From Aestuariivirga litoralis (GTDB lineage: Bacteria > Pseudomonadota > Alphaproteobacteria > Rhizobiales > Aestuariivirgaceae): a DNA stretch of 64,000 nt. The notes beneath the pieces were generated by a model, which saw only the letters and a program-made list of their open reading frames with translations, was not told where the DNA came from and did no database searches. Every line of letters begins with the position of its first letter. The stretch's first letter is position 1. The stretch is from contig NZ_QKVK01000007.1 in the NCBI RefSeq assembly GCF_003234965.1, positions 186,001-250,000 of the forward strand. Reading direction: 5' to 3'. The translations under genes and the position numbers were made by a program. Positions 15,232 to 23,022 of the stretch are shown here, piece after piece.

Positions 15232-15447
15232 ATGTCGATGATCAATGCCCAGCGCCACGATGAAGGCAAGCTCGAGTTCAGCCTCCTGATGTGGCTGGCC
15301 TTCGCGGTGTTCCTGGTGGCGATTGCCGCCACCCGCCTCATGCCGCGCTCCATGCGCCCGCGCGTCGGCGGCCATGACGACGGCAAGTCGATCTTCGCCG
15401 CGGCCAAGGCCGCCACCTACAACTCCATTCCCTTCGCCTTCATGTGA
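15232..15447 (+). CDS. pufQ: PufQ, small membrane protein of bacteriochlorophyll synthesis
   Basis: This 71-aa protein has one membrane span (about residues 17-37) and the usual position between bchZ and pufB. PufQ of Rhodobacter influences bacteriochlorophyll formation and the flux of tetrapyrroles; its exact mechanism is debated. The start is supported by AGGAG about 8 bases upstream of the ATG. Confidence 0.9.
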   Translation: MSMINAQRHDEGKLEFSLLMWLAFAVFLVAIAATRLMPRSMRPRVGGHDDGKSIFAAAKAATYNSIPFAFM

Positions 15448-15460
15448 AGGGTTTGCCATT

Positions 15461-15536
15461 CGCCTTGCCCCTCGGGGCAAGGCGGGTAACCGGGCCGCGC
15501 GGTCATTCAGCGGTGACGGTCCCCTTCGCGGGGGAC
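15461..15536 (+). promoter_or_regulatory. Two RNA hairpins between pufQ and pufB
   Basis: CGCCTTGCCCC at 15461-15471 pairs with GGGGCAAGGCG at 15474-15484, and GTCCCC at 15519-15524 pairs with GGGGAC at 15531-15536 around a TTCGCG loop. Such 5' structures upstream of pufB are expected to protect processed pufBA mRNA from decay. No U-run follows, so they are unlikely to be full terminators. Confidence 0.7.
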
Positions 15537-15555
15537 TTCATGACGGAGGTCAGAA

Positions 15556-15771
15556 ATGGCCGATAACAACGGGTCCACCTCGGGCCTGACCGAAGCCGAA
15601 GCCAAGGAATTCCATGGGATGTTCCTCACGAGCTTCATTGCCTTCACGTTGGTGGCGATCGTCGCCCACTTCCTGGCCTGGCAATGGCGCCCGTGGATCC
15701 CCGGACCCAATGGCTACGAAACCACCGACCTGAGCCCGGTGCTGCACCAGCTCACGTCGATGTTCACGTAA
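15556..15771 (+). CDS. pufB: Light-harvesting 1 (B875) beta polypeptide PufB
   Basis: This 71-aa protein is the LH1 beta subunit, which binds bacteriochlorophyll in the ring around the reaction centre. It has the family pattern with an N-terminal amphipathic head containing His20, one membrane span, and the chlorophyll-ligating His38 in AHFLAW followed by WRPW. The C-terminus after WRPW is about 24 residues longer than in many LH1 beta chains. A GGAGG ribosome site precedes the ATG. pufA follows after 12 bases. Confidence 0.95.
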
Positions 15772-15783
15772 GGAGGATTGGAT

Positions 15784-15969
15784 ATGTGGCGCATCTGGCT
15801 GTTGTTCGATCCCCGCAGGACGCTCGTCGCGATGGCGACCTTCCTGTTCGTTCTCGCTCTCGTCATCCACTTCATCCTGCTGTCCACCGACCGGTTCAAC
15901 TGGCTCGAGGGCGGCGTGGCGAAGAAGGCCGCGAGCCTGGACGTGACGATCAGCGAGATGGTCGGCTGA
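15784..15969 (+). CDS. pufA: Light-harvesting 1 (B875) alpha polypeptide PufA
   Basis: This 61-aa LH1 alpha subunit begins [14 protein letters not shown], the typical cytoplasmic start, with the bacteriochlorophyll ligand His29 in VIHFILLST followed by RFNWLEG. The ATG at 15784 has AGGAGG at 15771-15776; an in-frame TTG at 15778 is less likely. Together with PufB it forms the core antenna. Confidence 0.95.
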
Positions 15970-15992
15970 GGCCGTCCATCACCGCAACTCTT

Positions 15993-16030
15993 GTGGACGG
16001 AACGTGCCTTCATCGTCGCGTTCCGTCCAC
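15993..16030 (+). promoter_or_regulatory. Strong mRNA hairpin between pufA and pufL
   Basis: GTGGACGGAACG at 15993-16004 is perfectly complementary to CGTTCCGTCCAC at 16019-16030, with a 14-base loop. A stable intercistronic hairpin at this place is known in Rhodobacter to block 3' decay, so that pufBA mRNA outlasts pufLM and LH1 exceeds reaction centres. No U-run follows, which fits a stabiliser rather than a terminator. Confidence 0.85.
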
Positions 16031-16079
16031 ACACCACAGCTGAACGAAAGGCCGGCAACCGCCGGCAGGAGTGTCCATC

Positions 16080-16904
16080 ATGGCCATGCTGAGCTTCGAG
16101 AAGAAATATCGCGTCCGCGGCGGAACGCTGATCGGCGGCGACCTGTTCGATTTCTGGGTCGGGCCCTTCTATGTCGGCTTCTTCGGCGTGCTCACGGCCT
16201 TCTTCGCCTCGATCGGAACCGCGCTCATCGTCTATGGCGCGGCGATCGGCGGAACCTGGAACCTCTGGCAGATCAACATCGCCCCGCCGGATCTTTCCTA
16301 TGGCCTGGCGCTTGCCCCGCTGAAGCAGGGCGGCCTGTGGCAGATCATCACCATCTGCGCCACCGGCGCCTTCGTCTCCTGGGCGCTGCGCGAGGTCGAG
16401 ATCTGCCGCAAGCTCGGCATCGGGCTTCACGTGCCGGTTGCCTTCTCCTTCGCCATCTTCGCCTATGTGACGCTGGAGGTCATCCGCCCCTTCCTGCTCG
16501 GCGCCTGGGGCCATGGCTTCCCCTATGGCATCATCAGCCACCTCGATTGGGTGTCGAACGTCGGCTACCAGTACCTCCACTTCCACTACAATCCGGCGCA
16601 CATGATCGCCATCACCCTGTTCTTCACCTGCACGCTGGCGCTGGCGATGCATGGCGGCCTGGTGCTCTCGGCCACCAACCCGGCGAAGGGCGAGGCGGTG
16701 AAGACCGCGGAACACGAGAACAGCTTCTTCCGCGATCACATCGGCTACTCGATCGGAACCCTCGGCATCCATCGCCTAGGGCTTTTCCTGGCGCTCGGAG
16801 CGGTGTTCTTCAGCGCCGTGTGCATCGTGATCTCGGGCCCCTTCTGGACCCGCGGCTGGCCCGAATGGTGGAACTGGTGGCTCGACCTGCCGATCTGGTC
16901 TTGA
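16080..16904 (+). CDS. pufL: Photosynthetic reaction centre L subunit PufL
   Basis: This 274-aa protein is the L subunit of the type II reaction centre, with five membrane helices. It begins [37 protein letters not shown]-like sequence shared by PufL proteins (split here: start [10 protein letters not shown], then [15 protein letters not shown]). Conserved histidines appear in [20 protein letters not shown] and AMHGG, the bacteriochlorophyll and iron ligands. The start at 16080 is chosen over the upstream GTG (16071) because AGGAG lies 8 bases before it. Confidence 0.97.
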
Positions 16905-16923
16905 GCGCTGAGGAGAGAGAATC

Positions 16924-17895
16924 ATGATGATCGAATACCAGAACATCTTCACCCGCGTTCAGGTCCATGGCCCGGATGACCTCGGCGTTCCCCTGAAGCC
17001 CGGCAACTGGCCGCGCGAGAAGGGCATCACCACCAACTGGCTGCTCGGCATCATCGGCGATGCGCAGCTCGGCCCCATCTATCTCGGCGGCATCGGCATC
17101 ATGTCGCTGCTCTGCGGCTTCATCGCCATCGAGATCATCGGCCTCAACATGCTGGCCTCGGTGAACTGGAACCCCATCCAGTTCGTGCGCCAGCTGTTCT
17201 GGCTCGGGCTTGAGCCGCCGCCGGCGAAATACGGCCTCGGCCTCGCACCCTTGCGCGAGGGCGGCTGGTGGCAGATGGCGGGCTTCTTCCTCACCGCGTC
17301 CATCCTGCTGTGGTGGCTCAGGACCTACCGGCGCGCCCGCGCGCTGGGCATGGGCACCCACATCGCCTGGGCCTTCGCCGCGGCGATCTGGCTCTACCTG
17401 GTGCTGGGCTTCATCCGCCCGCTGCTGCTCGGCAACTTCTCGGAAGCCGTGCCCTTCGGCATCTTCCCGCACCTCGACTGGACGGCGGCCTTCTCGATCC
17501 GCTACGGCAACCTCTTCTACAACCCCTTCCACATGCTCTCGATCGCCTTCCTCTATGGCTCGGCACTTCTTTTCGCGATGCATGGCGCGACCATCCTGGC
17601 GGTGTCGCGGCTGGGCGGCGAGCGCGAGATCGAGCAGATCATCGACCGCGGCACGGCCTCGGAGCGCGCGGCCCTGTTCTGGCGCTGGACCATGGGCTTC
17701 AACGCCACCATGGAGTCGATCCACCGCTGGGCCTGGTGGATGGCGGTGCTCTGCCCGCTGGTCGGCGGCATCGGCATCCTGCTCACGGGAACGGTCGTGG
17801 ACAACTGGTACCTGTGGGCGGTGAAGCACCATGTGGCACCCATGTATCCCTTCGACTTGACGGCCCCCATCACCGACCCGGCGACGGCGCAATAG
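16924..17895 (+). CDS. pufM: Photosynthetic reaction centre M subunit PufM
   Basis: This 323-aa M subunit pairs with PufL to hold the special pair, bacteriopheophytins, quinones and iron. It starts with two ATG codons (16924 or 16927) and carries the family segments [13 protein letters not shown] and [20 protein letters not shown], with histidine ligands at FHMLSIAF and AMHGATILA. The C-terminus is slightly extended, as in species whose reaction centre binds a PufC cytochrome. pufC follows after 13 bases. Confidence 0.97.
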
Positions 17896-17908
17896 GAGTG
17901 CGGGACCC

Positions 17909-18970
17909 ATGAAGAATATCTCGGCAACCACCCTCACCGCCTCGCTGCTCGTCACCGTCATCGGCATCCTGCTGGTCATTCCCATGATGCTGCAGTGGGA
18001 ACGCCCGCCGATGGACTCGACCCAGCTCGGCTTCCGCGGCCTCGGCATGGAGCAGATCACCAATCCGCGCCTTGCCGAGAAGGTCAAGGCCGCCAACCCG
18101 CTGCCCACGCCCGACGATGCCGTTCCCAATGACGGCGTGCTCGTCAAGGACGACAAGGAGAACTACAAGAACGTCCAGGTGCTGGGCGACCTCGACACCG
18201 CGCAGTTCGTGCGGCTGATGAACGCCATCTCCACCTGGGTGGCGCCGCAGGAAGGCGACAATGCCGGCTGCGCCTATTGCCACAACCTCGAGAACATGGC
18301 TTCCGACGAGCTCTACACCAAGGTCGTCGCCCGCCGCATGATCCAGATGACGCGGGCCATCAACACCCAGCACAAGAGCCACGTCGCGCAGACCGGCGTC
18401 ACCTGCTACACCTGCCACCGCGGCCAGCCGGTGCCGGCCAATATCTGGGCCACCAACCCGGGCCCCAAGCAGGCGGGCGGCTTTGCCGCCAGCCGCGACG
18501 GCCAGAACCTGGCACACCAGTCGGTGCCGGCCTATGCCTCGCTGCCCTATGACCCCTTCACCACGCTGCTGAACACGCCGGCAGAGAGCATCCGCGTGGT
18601 GGCAACGACGGCGCTGCCCGGCGGCACAGGTGCTGGCGTGAAGGCAACGGAAAAGACCTATGCGCTGATGATGCACATGTCGACCGGCCTCGGCGTCAAC
18701 TGCACCTTCTGCCACAACTCGCGCCAGTTCGCGAACTGGGAGCAGAGCCGGCCGCAGCGCGTCACCGCCTGGCACGGCATCCAGATGGTGCGCGACGTCA
18801 ACGCCACCTACATCGGCTCGCTCACCGACGTCTTCCCCGCCAACCGCAAGGGCCCCGAGGGCGACGTCTACAAGGCCAACTGCGCCACCTGCCACAACGG
18901 CGTGAACAAGCCGCTCTACGGCTTCTCGATGGCGAAGGACTATCCCGAACTCTCGGTCCCCAATCCATGA
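17909..18970 (+). CDS. pufC: Tetraheme reaction centre cytochrome c subunit PufC
   Basis: PufC re-reduces the photo-oxidised special pair from the periplasmic side. The 353-aa protein has one N-terminal hydrophobic segment (about 9-28) and four heme c motifs: CAYCH (121-125), CYTCH (166-170), CTFCH (265-269) and CATCH (325-329). No lipobox cysteine is seen at the N-terminus, so it is probably anchored by an uncleaved helix. pufX is absent; this gene occupies the 3' end of the puf block. Confidence 0.96.
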   Translation: MKNISATTLTASLLVTVIGILLVIPMMLQWERPPMDSTQLGFRGLGMEQITNPRLAEKVKAANPLPTPDDAVPNDGVLVKDDKENYKNVQVLGDLDTAQFVRLMNAISTWVAPQEGDNAGCAYCHNLENMASDELYTKVVARRMIQMTRAINTQHKSHVAQTGVTCYTCHRGQPVPANIWATNPGPKQAGGFAASRDGQNLAHQSVPAYASLPYDPFTTLLNTPAESIRVVATTALPGGTGAGVKATEKTYALMMHMSTGLGVNCTFCHNSRQFANWEQSRPQRVTAWHGIQMVRDVNATYIGSLTDVFPANRKGPEGDVYKANCATCHNGVNKPLYGFSMAKDYPELSVPNP

Positions 18971-19066: not shown

Positions 19067-19219
19067 ATGGACGATCCCAACAGGGTGTGGCCCACCGGCC
19101 TCACCATCAAGGAATCAGAGGAGCTGCATAAGCACGTCATCGATGGCGCGCGGGTGTTCTTTGTGATCGCCCTCTTCGCTCATCTCTTGGCGTACATCTA
19201 CTCGCCGTGGCTGCACTAG
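19067..19219 (+). CDS. pucB: Light-harvesting 2 beta polypeptide PucB
   Basis: This 50-aa protein is the LH2 beta chain. It shows the characteristic VWPTGLT start, His21 (region of the B800 pigment) and the B850 ligand His39 in [17 protein letters not shown] at 19054-19059, 7 bases before the ATG, decides the start; the frame is open further upstream. It lies only 96 bases after pufC with no clear operator or terminator between, so it appears to be read with the puf genes. Confidence 0.94.
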
Positions 19220-19627: not shown

Positions 19628-21031
19628 ATGAACCGCTTCAGCCAACGCATGATGAGAGCCTGGGCCGGGCTCGGCGCCAAGTATCTGCCCTTCGCGGATG
19701 CGGCGTCGGATGACGTGCCCCTCGAGCGGCTGCTGCGGCTTTCCCTGTTCCAGGTCTCGGCCGGCATGACGCTGGTGCTGCTGGTCGGCACGCTGAACCG
19801 CGTGATGATCGTGGAACTCGGCGTGCCCGCCTCGCTGGTCGCCGTCATGCTCGCCATGCCGCTGGTGGCTGCGCCCTTCCGCGCCCTGATCGGCTTCAAG
19901 TCCGACACCCACCGCTCCGCGCTCGGCTGGAAGCGCGTGCCCTATTTCTACAAGGGCACCATGGTGCAGTTCGGCGGCCTCGCCATCATGCCCTTTGCCC
20001 TGCTCGTGCTGGCACGGCAGGGCCACGCAGCCGACATTCCGCCCATCGTCGGCCAGATCGCGGCGGCACTGGCCTTCCTGCTGGTGGGTGCCGGCCTCAA
20101 TACCACCCAGACGGTCGGGCTGGCGCTCGCCACCGACCTCACGCCGCCGGAAAAGCAGCCCAATGTCGTCGGCCTCATGTATGTGGCGCTGCTTGCCGGC
20201 TCGATCGTCAGTGCGCTGATCTTCGGGGCCCTGCTCTATCACTTCACGCCCGGCCGCCTCGTTCAGGTGATCCAGGGTGCCGGTGTGGCCACCATCCTGC
20301 TCAACGGCATTGCCGTGTGGAAGCAGGAGGCGCGCGGCACCGCGCGCCCCCGCCACAACGCGACGCCGGACCCGACCTTCCAGCAGTCATGGGCCTCCTT
20401 CATGGCGGGCGACAAGGCGCTGGCCCGTCTCGTCGCCGTCGGCGTCGGCACCCTCGCCTTCTCCATGCAGGACGTGATGCTGGAGCCCTATGGCGGCCAG
20501 GTGCTGGGCCTCGCCGTGTCACGCACCACGCTGCTGACCGCCGCCATGGCCGCGGGCGGCCTCATCGGCTTCAGCCTCGCATCCTATGTGCTGAGCCGCG
20601 GCTTCGATGCCTTCCGCATGGCCTCGTTCGGGGCCATGGTCGGCGTTCCGGCCTTCCTGATGATCATTCTGGCCGCACCGCTGATGTCGCCCCTGCTCTT
20701 CGGGCTGGGCACCTTCCTCATCGGCTTCGGCGCCGGGCTGTTCGGCCATGGCACGCTCACCGCAACCATGAACAGCGCGCCGCCGGCGCAGCGCGGCCTG
20801 GCGCTGGGGGCCTGGGGCGCGGTTCAGGCCACGGCTGCCGGCCTCGGCGTGGCGCTGGGCGGCGTCATCCGCGACACGCTCTCGGCGCTGGACAGCGGAA
20901 GCCTGCTGACACCCTACCTCGCGGTCTATATCCTCGAGGTGATCCTGCTGATTGCCGCCATCGTTACCATGACTGCCCTCATCAAGAGCCCGCGCGGGGC
21001 TGCCTCCTCCCACCCGGCCCAGTTGCGATGA
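19628..21031 (+). CDS. pucC: PucC, LH2 assembly protein of the BCD/PucC transporter-like family
   Basis: This 467-aa polytopic protein (about 12 membrane spans) belongs to the PucC/LhaA family of major-facilitator-like proteins required for antenna assembly or pigment delivery. It has the family stretches LGTLNRVMIVELGVP-like (here VGTLNRVMIVELGVP), ALIGFKSDTHRS and LEPYGGQVLGL. It is clearly paralogous to the gene at 42739 and more distantly to that at 26473. The start at 19628 gives the family's usual N-terminus; the open frame upstream is non-coding spacer. Confidence 0.93.
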   Translation: MNRFSQRMMRAWAGLGAKYLPFADAASDDVPLERLLRLSLFQVSAGMTLVLLVGTLNRVMIVELGVPASLVAVMLAMPLVAAPFRALIGFKSDTHRSALGWKRVPYFYKGTMVQFGGLAIMPFALLVLARQGHAADIPPIVGQIAAALAFLLVGAGLNTTQTVGLALATDLTPPEKQPNVVGLMYVALLAGSIVSALIFGALLYHFTPGRLVQVIQGAGVATILLNGIAVWKQEARGTARPRHNATPDPTFQQSWASFMAGDKALARLVAVGVGTLAFSMQDVMLEPYGGQVLGLAVSRTTLLTAAMAAGGLIGFSLASYVLSRGFDAFRMASFGAMVGVPAFLMIILAAPLMSPLLFGLGTFLIGFGAGLFGHGTLTATMNSAPPAQRGLALGAWGAVQATAAGLGVALGGVIRDTLSALDSGSLLTPYLAVYILEVILLIAAIVTMTALIKSPRGAASSHPAQLR

Positions 21032-21089: not shown

Positions 21090-21668
21090 ATGAGCCACGA
21101 AATCACCCGCATGTATGCCAATGCCGCCACCGCCGCCAAGGCCGCGGAGGAGCTGCGCGAGGAAGGCTTCGCCGATATCTTCGTGGTCAACCCGCCGGGC
21201 TCCGCCGATGTGCCGGTCTCCGCCATCGCCGCGCAGATCGCGCTGGGCCACGTCCACCTGCCGGAGGCGAGGATCTATGCCAAGGGTGTTGCCGCCGGAC
21301 ATGCGCTGGTGACGGTGCATGCGCCCTTCGGCTCCGGCCGGCTGGCGGAAACCATTCTCGCCTCCCACGGCCCCGTCGAGTCCGGCCTGCCCCAGGCGGA
21401 GCCGGACCGGATCTGGGATGATGCAGCGCCCCTCTCCAGCGCCATGATGATGCCGCTGCTGATCAATGATCCCGATCCGATGTCGAAGGTCCTCGGCATC
21501 CCGGCGGTCACCTCGGGTGAGTGCAGCTTCTCCGAGAAGCTCGGCATGCCGCTGCTGACCAATGGCGAACTGGGCGACAGGGGCCGCCTGGGCCTCCCCT
21601 TCCTGTCGAACAACCCCACCCCCCTCTCCTCCGCCCTCGGCCTGCCGGTGCTGAGCAAGCGGCAATAA
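21090..21668 (+). CDS. Puc-operon protein of unknown function with five 16-residue C-terminal repeats
   Basis: This 192-aa soluble-looking protein follows pucC by 58 bases. Residues 1-100 form an alpha/beta-type domain starting MSHEITRMYANAATAAKAAE; it resembles stress-protein-like ferredoxin folds only in general pattern. Residues 114-192 are five repeats of 16 residues with consensus xxSxxLGxPxLxxxxx (examples: PMSKVLGIPAVTSGEC, SFSEKLGMPLLTNGEL). No signal peptide, metal motif or membrane span is seen. Position suggests a role in LH2 assembly or regulation, but this is inference. A REP element directly downstream probably ends the operon. Confidence 0.8.
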   Translation: MSHEITRMYANAATAAKAAEELREEGFADIFVVNPPGSADVPVSAIAAQIALGHVHLPEARIYAKGVAAGHALVTVHAPFGSGRLAETILASHGPVESGLPQAEPDRIWDDAAPLSSAMMMPLLINDPDPMSKVLGIPAVTSGECSFSEKLGMPLLTNGELGDRGRLGLPFLSNNPTPLSSALGLPVLSKRQ

Positions 21669-21690: not shown

Positions 21691-22027
21691 ATGACCGCCG
21701 GGCCCTGGGCCCGGCGACCCTTTTTGGCACGAGCCAAAGGGTGCCCGGGACGAGCCCGGGCATGATGAACGGGGGTGGTGTCGCCGGGCATGCACTCCAA
21801 TAGCTCATCATCGCCGGGCTTGTCCCGGCGACCCTTTTTGGCACCAGCCAAAGGGTGCCCGGGACGAGCCCGGGCATGATGAAAGGGGTAGTGTCGCCGG
21901 GCTTGTCTTCCAATAGCTCATCATCGCCGGGCTCATCCTCAAGGTAATGCTCATCATCGCCGGGCTTGTCCCCGCGACCCTTTTCAGCACCAGCCAAAGG
22001 TGTCCGGGACGAGCCCGGGCATGATGA
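21691..22027. repeat. REP array, left block (three copies)
   Basis: Copies of about 78 bases lie at 21691-21768, 21805-21882 and 21951-22027. Each reads CATCATCGCCGGGCTTGTCC, then a CCCTTTTTGGC centre, then GACGAGCCCGGGCATGATGA, forming a long imperfect palindrome. Spacer pieces such as CCAATAGC and GTCGCCGGG recur. The block starts 22 bases after the last puc-operon stop and may act as a terminator or mRNA stabiliser. Confidence 0.9.
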
Positions 22028-22136
22028 AAGGGGGGAAGCGTTGCCGCGTTTGTTCCGGCGAACCTTTTCCCTGCTGCGTAGCCAATGCAAAGTCTTTCAT
22101 GTTGACGGTTCTGCCGTTGCGACCCCCAAATGCCTC

Positions 22137-22424
22137 ATGGCCAGCGGGTTCTGCTACATCCTCGCACATCGGCGGAATGGCGTGCTCTACGTCGGCGTGA
22201 CGCGGAATCTGCCGCGGCGGATATACGAGCATCGCATGGGCTTGCTGGGCGGGTTCACCAGCCGGTACGGGGTGACACGGCTCGTGCTCTACGAGGAATA
22301 CCCTCGCTTCATGGATGCCGTTCAGCGGGAGAAGAACATCAAGCATTGGCCACGGGCGTGGAAGATAAACCTCATCGAAGCCGGCAATCCGGAATGGATC
22401 GATCTCTACGATCAGCTGATGTGA
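22137..22424 (+). CDS. GIY-YIG domain single-domain nuclease-like protein
   Basis: This 95-aa protein is a stand-alone GIY-YIG domain of the UPF0213/YhbQ-like type. Visible family features are FCYILAHRRNGVLYVGVT (the GIY and YIG strands), an arginine-rich LPRRIYEH helix and a later acidic QREKNIKHW segment. The ATG at 22137 gives the compact family length; the frame is open further upstream through REP sequence. It lies between two REP blocks. Such genes are common in alphaproteobacterial repeat clusters, and their cellular role is not settled. Confidence 0.85.
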   Translation: MASGFCYILAHRRNGVLYVGVTRNLPRRIYEHRMGLLGGFTSRYGVTRLVLYEEYPRFMDAVQREKNIKHWPRAWKINLIEAGNPEWIDLYDQLM

Positions 22425-22469
22425 TGAAGTCTCACGAAGTCATCATCAAGGGGCTCAACTCTCTCAAAC

Positions 22470-23010
22470 TCATCATCGCCGGGCTTGTCCCGGCGACCCT
22501 TTTGGCACCAGCCAAAGGGTGCCCGGGACGAGCCCGGGCATGATGAACGGGGGTGGTGTCGCCGCGCTTGCCCTCCAATGCTCATCATCGCCGGGCTTGT
22601 CCCGGCGACCCTTTTTGGCACCAGCCAAAGGGTGCCCGGGACGAGCCCGGGCATGATGAACAGGGGTGGTGTCGCGGGGCTCATCCTCAAGGTAATGCTC
22701 ATCATCGCCGGGCTTGTCCCGGCGACCCTTTTCAGCACCGGCCAAAGGGTGCCCGGGACGAGCCCGGGCATGATGAATGGGGGGTTGGTGTCGCCGGGCT
22801 CATCCTCAAGGTAATTCTCATCATCGCCGGGCTTGTCCCGGCGACCCTTTTCAGCACCGGCCAAAGGGTGCCCGGGACGAGCCCGGGCATGATGAATGGG
22901 GGGTTGTGTCGCAGGGCTTGCCCTCCAATAGCTCATCATCGCCGGGCTTGTCCCGGCGACCCTTTTTGGCACCAGCCAAAGGGTGCCCGGGACGAGCCCG
23001 GGCATGATGA
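22470..23010. repeat. REP array, right block (five copies)
   Basis: Copies lie at 22470-22546, 22582-22659, 22699-22776, 22818-22894 and 22933-23010, all in the same orientation as the left block and nearly identical. Spacers of 35-41 bases also repeat in part (CTCATCCTCAAGGTAAT; GCTTGCCCTCCAAT). The last copy ends 12 bases before the stop of the convergent fni gene. The whole array therefore fills the space between two convergent operons, where it could act as a bidirectional terminator. Confidence 0.92.
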
Positions 23011-23022
23011 AACATCAGGGCA

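Follow-up and report, generated by a model that had tools for sequence, protein, structure and literature searches.

The window, by which we mean the whole stretch of 64,000 nucleotides of Aestuariivirga litoralis DNA analysed here, carries a run of light-harvesting genes on the forward strand (Table 1). Among the upstream genes, pufL, pufM, pufC and pufA are named by NCBIfam and pufB by the Pfam LHC family; the assignment of pufQ is presumptive. They are followed by a second beta/alpha pair (PF00556), a PUCC-family gene and, 58 bp after the latter, the start of orf192. An earlier note had put this gene at the end of a puc operon, and the order pucB, pucA, pucC (PF03209, E=1.8e-143), orf192 agrees with that placement.

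Table 1. Genes and features around orf192 in the window
Feature	Position	Strand	Basis or remark
pufQ, pufB, pufA, pufL, pufM, pufC (upstream, same direction)	15232..18970	+	NCBIfam, Pfam
pucB, LH2 beta	19067..19219	+	best PDB matches are beta chains of gamma-bearing Rps. palustris LH2
pucA, LH2 alpha, 93 aa	19232..19513	+	PF00556, E=7e-11
pucC, LH2 assembly protein	19628..21031	+	PF03209 PUCC, E=1.8e-143
orf192, 192-aa LH2-linked putative ribbon protein	21090..21668	+	192 codons and stop; homologues beside LH2 genes
N-domain, predicted alpha/beta fold, residues 1-108	21090..21413	+	AlphaFold2; common to the bridge protein
Repeat unit 1, PLSSAMMMPLLINDPD, residues 114-129	21429..21476	+	periodicity and unit model
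Repeat unit 2, PMSKVLGIPAVTSGEC, residues 130-145	21477..21524	+	periodicity and unit model
Repeat unit 3, SFSEKLGMPLLTNGEL, residues 146-161	21525..21572	+	periodicity and unit model
Repeat unit 4, GDRGRLGLPFLSNNPT, residues 162-177	21573..21620	+	periodicity and unit model
Repeat unit 5, PLSSALGLPVLSKRQ, residues 178-192	21621..21665	+	well conserved in alignments A2 and A3
Terminator-like stem-loop with T run	21696..21716	+	27 bp after the orf192 stop codon

The second beta/alpha pair is assigned to LH2 because pucB matches best the beta chain of 7ZE3 (E=5.1e-26), an LH2 that bears the gamma subunit discussed below; 7ZDI/7ZE8, 8z81_b and 7ZCU follow in that order. The best PDB matches of the upstream beta, pufB, are mostly named LH1. 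NCBIfam labels the second beta as LH1 beta, but it does so for the pucB of two gamma-bearing loci as well; therefore, the label cannot separate LH1 from LH2. The model NF040862 (LH1 beta, window 19067-19216) passes its cutoff on LH2-type betas and seems too broad.

Residues 114-192 of orf192 divide into units of 16, 16, 16, 16 and 15 residues. The title of the earlier note announced five perfect-length 16-residue repeats, which is right for four units and not for the last, as its own text had it. Proline at position 9 is present in 5/5 units, and Ser3 and Gly7 in 4/5 each; unit 4 has Arg at position 3. At a lag of 16 the tail scores 1.49 per residue (BLOSUM62) with 33% identity, and 0/20,000 residue shuffles match either value. 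The score is matched at any lag from 8 to 32 by 0/4,000 shuffles. Chance periodicity is thereby ruled out, and the division into four units of 16 and one of 15 stands. Alignment A1 comprises the own protein and ten relatives; five units were scored in 10 of its 11 rows, the own one included, and four in the remaining row (L019), these rows having also trained the unit model. Against seven of the ten A1 relatives, dN/dS is 0.20-0.39 for the N-domain and 0.25-0.59 for the tail; therefore, orf192 is a gene under constraint. With orf192 as the query, its own genome gives a single match at E<=10, and no second repeat protein was found there at that threshold.

AlphaFold2 gives block means of 85-94 for residues 1-100 and pLDDT below 50 for the tail. 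The self-folding solenoid that the LGxP repeats had suggested to the earlier note was rejected on the latter value. Such low confidence fits a ribbon that takes shape only when bound to its partner, and it also fits plain disorder. A Foldseek search with the model returned 590 matches at E<=10, with none at E<=0.001 among the best 50 of the 590, and the fold of the N-domain is therefore left unnamed. The single protein had no match in Pfam, NCBIfam or the PDB, and a plasmid tblastn search gave none at E<=1. The A1 profile found two unrelated weak matches in the PDB and did not reach gamma. A distant origin of the N-domain from the YflT domain (PF11181, general stress protein 17M-like) is possible. 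At the gathering threshold of that family orf192 has no match and its relatives fall below the cutoff, as does one weak match to the family profile (L043, PF11181 E=0.0005). In the literature searched, which was covered in part and without supplements, no paper was recognised as describing the orf192 protein or its family, and no description was found of the head domain to which the gamma-homologous repeats are joined. The statement that no function has been described thus holds for orf192 itself within that literature; it overlooked the published LH2-gamma ribbon, whose repeats are homologous.

The distribution of the gene was compared with that of LH2, for which similarity to the window pucB at 61 bits or more served as the gate. 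The solved LH2 betas of 7pbw (51.8 bits) and 1kzu (49.3 bits) would fail this gate; therefore, the counts of co-occurrence cover window-type pucB and not other LH2 types. In the order sample of 397 genomes, 23 carry such a pucB (at least 61 bits; next match 36). A full-length homologue was found in 17 by the first profile, A1 (E<=1e-11), all among the 23, and reading of the neighbourhoods added two more (G132 and G096), so that 19 of the 23 have it beside pucBA. Two members escaped A1, so the absences counted are a maximum. None of the 23 is among the 15 remaining genomes with a match (E 5e-7 or weaker, N-domain region only). The four genomes with LH2-type pucB and no homologue all belong to one genus (family f30, genus g35), in which the family profile gives N-domain-type matches only. 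Loci of this genus (L177-L181) hold several pucBA pairs, and no ribbon homologue was found in them. In the class sample of 385, a window-type pucB (at least 65 bits; next 34) is present in 12 genomes, 11 of which have the homologue beside pucBA; G547 lacks it. The own genome is in both samples, and thus 29 of 34 distinct genomes with window-type pucB carry the family beside LH2 genes. The phylum sample of 180 gave full-length matches in the own genome and G448 and N-domain-only matches in nine others. Within its own genus the orf192 protein is present in 10/37 genomes, the own one included.

We read 36 neighbourhoods. A family match, mostly a strong one, was the reason for choosing 34 of them, and the presence of LH2 genes that for choosing L145 and L146; weak matches of the order sample that cover the N-domain only were left out of this set. 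L011 and L022 are one and the same contig by length and coordinates, as are L013 and L023, and each pair was counted once. By the earlier note, its reading would fall if most homologues lay outside puc operons. The opposite came out: pucB and pucA stand beside the homologue in 29 of the 34 family-match loci (19/20 in the first set, 10/14 in the second), and both loci fetched for LH2 genes contain it. The five exceptions are a short paralogue (L065), three head-only stress-type loci (L141-L143) and L144, which has a 76-aa frame. Locus L131 lies on a short contig with no pucC detected. The order of the genes varies among pucBAC-orf, pucBA-orf-pucC and divergent arrangements, which argues for retained linkage and against one frozen operon. 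It is pufQBALMC-pucBAC-orf192 in the own genus; in the fetched loci outside the genus, the homologue is found with pucBA and no puf gene was detected in the stretch read. The short paralogue (L021/L065, G001:C13:1183-1623) has 147 residues, a shortened N-domain and two window-type units by eye; the 9 kb read at this locus showed no puc gene. In G702 the match is tail-only, in a 76-aa frame.

A repeat ribbon on LH2 has been described in Rps. palustris. LH2-gamma (RPA1495; chain S of PDB 7ZCU, 7ZDI, 7ZE3 and 7ZE8) is an extended chain of six approximate repeats without regular secondary structure; the serine of each repeat ligates one extra bacteriochlorophyll, and six of the nine LH2 alpha-beta pairs are enclosed, according to the part of PMC9618040 available. 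The same part, dated 2022, reports gamma as restricted to Rhodopseudomonas. Residues 4-94 of the PDB chain (7ZCU chain S) have a 16-residue period. We found gamma in 10/159 genomes of family f35, in three genera, and in 0/5 of the family of G122. Gamma (91 aa) searched against 23 LH2-bearing genomes gave three weak matches at E<=10; the one in G352 (E=0.76) falls on the orf192 homologue, and those in G222 and G166 do not.

Adjoining gamma is a protein, here called the bridge (link) protein, in which the N-domain of the window protein is joined to gamma-type repeats. It occurs in nine of the ten gamma-bearing genomes. In the tenth (G931) no bridge frame was seen, the loci being at contig ends or with short frames. 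Eight loci from seven of these ten genomes were read: the order pucB-pucA-pucC-bridge-gamma is found in L170-L174, L176 and L182, and at L175 the bridge query hit two frames, that of the bridge and the 84-aa gamma frame after it. Since RPA1491 and RPA1492 are pucBe and pucAe (PMC5069747, available part), the bridge is probably RPA1494, a number taken from gene order; the literature search for that tag found no paper. Ten bridge, ten gamma and three nine-unit proteins, the last being gamma paralogues, were scored. A second bridge and a second, shorter (68-aa) gamma of G900 were left out, as were duplicate loci of the same genes.

The head and the tail of orf192 can each be compared with these proteins. 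A full-length hhalign comparison of A1 with one bridge gave 99.7% and E=2.5e-25, the alignment ending in NNPTPLSSALGLPVLSK against NNPTPLSSWLGLPVLSR. The N-domain HMM matches 10/10 scored bridge proteins at E 7e-11 to 4e-25 (Z=1000). In the N-domain tree, from which L138 was dropped, the ten bridge proteins form one clade among puc-linked rows (99/99); two stress-type rows also lie inside, and several long branches make the deep order unsure. The tail HMM, built without any f35 sequence and likewise used at Z=1000, matches bridge tails at E 3e-12 to 1e-20 (10/10), gamma at E 1.5e-8 to 0.044 (10/10 tested) and the nine-unit proteins at E below 4e-12 (3/3). Reversed copies of gamma and of the nine-unit proteins reach at most 2.2 bits. 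The nine-unit proteins score at least 42 bits against 8.3 for the best of 600 shuffles, whereas one of 2,000 gamma shuffles (10.2 bits) exceeds the weakest real gamma (9.8 bits). When the 16 positions were permuted identically in every block, a control that keeps the period, between 0 and 7 of the 300 trials run for each protein reached the real score. Profile A3, whose 25 rows include six bridges, has 7zcu_S as its sole PDB match at E<=1 (E=1.9e-17, in register). The profile comparisons establish that the five-unit tail of orf192 is homologous to the six-unit LH2-gamma of Rps. palustris in the same register. Low-complexity drift as the source of the tail is ruled out by the constraint on it (dN/dS) and by the period-keeping controls.

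Two types of unit are distinguished, window-type (W) and gamma-type (G). The unit string is W-GGGGG-W in 10/10 scored bridge proteins, GGGGGG in 10/10 gamma, and eight G with one W in 3/3 nine-unit proteins; the spacing among these proteins is 16, with some 13s. In members outside f35 the spacing of 16 is the commonest, and 25, 17, 31 and others also occur. The mixed strings at shared spacing indicate that the two unit types are exchangeable modules. Between 1 and 7 units were detected in non-f35 members, the divergent ones being probably undercounted. Ser3 is present in 45/54 A1 units (training rows), 82/106 other non-f35 window-type units and 20/20 bridge window-type units. Ser6 is found in 0/5 orf192 units, 0/54 units of the A1 rows and 4/106 window-type units of other non-f35 members. 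Its presence in 60/60 gamma units follows by construction from a picking pattern that contains SG; for 50/50 bridge and 24/24 nine-unit gamma-type units it comes from a model that had been trained on these very units.

In tandem 16-residue units, in significant homology with shared register and in being encoded with LH2 genes, orf192 belongs to a broad LH2-gamma repeat family. Like LH2-gamma, it has units with G7-x-P9-L-[LI] and a homologous tail; close relatives are encoded in pucBAC clusters. It differs from LH2-gamma proper, a repeat-only form of about 97 residues (97 aa in RPA1495) with no N-domain and with Ser6 in each of its six units, by a predicted folded head, five units, and Ser3 instead of Ser6. 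The bridge protein shares with orf192 the N-domain, the place after pucC and window-type units at both ends of the tail, but gamma-type units with Ser6 make up five of the seven in that tail. The LH1 gamma of Blastochloris viridis is also an extra antenna polypeptide around a light-harvesting ring; by the description in the available part of PMC10214105, it differs in being 16 separate polypeptides round LH1 with no repeat ribbon. The available parts of PMC12817894 and PMC10214105 name no LH2-gamma relative. PucC and LhaA are covered in PMC4949548, as far as that source was available.

Taken together, orf192 is probably an LH2-gamma-like ribbon that binds the LH2 ring and carries a folded head. 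The tail would be disordered alone and would stretch out as a ribbon along the outside of the LH2 ring on its cytoplasmic side, with one repeat unit per alpha-beta pair and thus about five pairs, and the N-domain would sit in the cytoplasm at one end of the ribbon. With less certainty, each unit might hold an extra monomeric bacteriochlorophyll via Ser3 (or Ser4) in place of the Ser6 of gamma; or, without pigment, the ribbon might hold neighbouring alpha-beta pairs together during PucC-assisted assembly. For the ribbon reading speak homology, shared register, linkage and co-occurrence with LH2-type pucB, all established at the level of sequence, and the best PDB match of PucB, which is the beta of a gamma-bearing LH2. 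The earlier note had thought of binding turns, for example for PucA/PucB heads or PucC; that the repeats of this puc-operon protein are LH2-binding turns is probable.

Several observations weigh against the ribbon reading. The Mg ligand of gamma, Ser6, is absent from the orf192 units. For purified Rps. palustris LH2, the part of PMC9618040 available names one additional band, near 10 kDa, and makes no mention of the larger bridge protein, so that the form with a head may be no stable subunit; the same source has Rps. palustris LH2 made in Rba. sphaeroides without gamma. Five genomes have LH2-type genes without the family (four of f30/g35, and G547). PDB entry 8z81 contains, beside LH1-like chains, nine chains of a beta that closely resembles the window PucB, yet profile A3 matches none of its chains at E<=1. 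A1 alone missed gamma in the PDB, and one gamma shuffle scored higher than the weakest real gamma. Two points, the missing Ser6 and the lack of mention of the head-bearing protein in the available account of purified LH2, weigh toward a changed or accessory role; the conserved serine of the units points to a ligand.

The ribbon reading has two forms. In one, orf192 would be an assembly factor and not a subunit, its repeats transiently gripping several PucB/PucA (or PucC), guiding ring closure and leaving; gamma would be a copy that arose later, has no head and remained on the ring. This form, which is possible and short of probable, fits the clustering with pucC, the want of Ser6 in window-type units, and the head-bearing protein and gamma being encoded side by side with only gamma described in the purified complex (PMC9618040, available part). 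Against it stand the homology to, and the register shared with, a subunit that is stably bound and ligates pigment, and the conserved serine of the units, suggestive of a ligand-like role. In the other form, orf192 would be a full equivalent of LH2-gamma, a stoichiometric subunit adding about five extra 800-nm bacteriochlorophylls with Ser3 as the Mg ligand. The Ser3 counts given above favour it, as does the finding of no second repeat protein in the own genome with orf192 as query; but the putative ligand position differs by three residues and unit 4 has Arg at position 3. This form, like the first, is possible and short of probable.

Readings outside the ribbon are much less likely. Because orf192 follows the puf operon in its own genus and NCBIfam names the adjacent beta LH1, the protein might be a partner of LH1 or the reaction centre and not of LH2. 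In the fetched loci outside the genus the gene keeps company with pucBA, with no puf gene detected in the stretch read, the same NCBIfam label lies on the pucB of gamma-bearing loci, and the best PDB matches of PucB are LH2, so that we consider this very unlikely. Scarcely credible is a YflT-like general stress protein that drifted next to puc and acquired an unrelated low-complexity tail: its N-domain does resemble the stress-protein domain (the L043 match, below cutoff), but the tail is constrained and homologous to LH2-gamma, and in the fetched loci the full-length members stand beside LH2 genes except for one short paralogue.

Textbooks present the LH2 antenna as alpha-beta pairs arranged in a symmetric ring. 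Rba. capsulatus PucD and PucE are other LH2 operon proteins. The LH2-gamma ribbon was already known, published as Rhodopseudomonas-only in the available part of PMC9618040; new here are gamma-homologous repeats with a head domain beside LH2 genes in 29/34 sampled genomes with window-type pucB, which suggests that LH2-wrapping ribbon proteins are commoner among purple bacteria than reported. A wider extension, which we regard as doubtful, is that window-type-PucB LH2 across much of Alphaproteobacteria is no bare symmetric alpha-beta ring but carries, or is built on, an asymmetric ribbon that counts pairs and can add pigments via alternative Ser positions. One 16-residue unit per pair would then give five in the own genus, six in gamma, up to seven detected elsewhere and nine in the paralogue. 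The outcome is a set of candidates for knock-out, a template for the structure of the tail and a starting point for asking why part of the ring is left uncovered.

The nine-unit paralogue of gamma has 145 residues, with units at 16-residue spacing, and occurs in G805, G900 and G931 (L160:686-1123 (-), L161:990-1427 (-) and L157:225-662 (+), '-' denoting reverse-complement coordinates) near gamma-type genes. Nine units could in principle be enough to circle the whole nonameric LH2 ring.

Downstream of orf192, positions 21696-23015 of the window hold an array of REP-like repeat copies of 85-119 bp, whose element recurs at dozens of sites in the genome on both strands. The stem-loop after orf192 overlaps this array and is one of two terminator-like stem-loops found in the window versus 1.3 expected by chance. 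Between repeat copies lies an ORF with a GIY-YIG domain (21966-22424, +; PF01541, E=1.3e-15).
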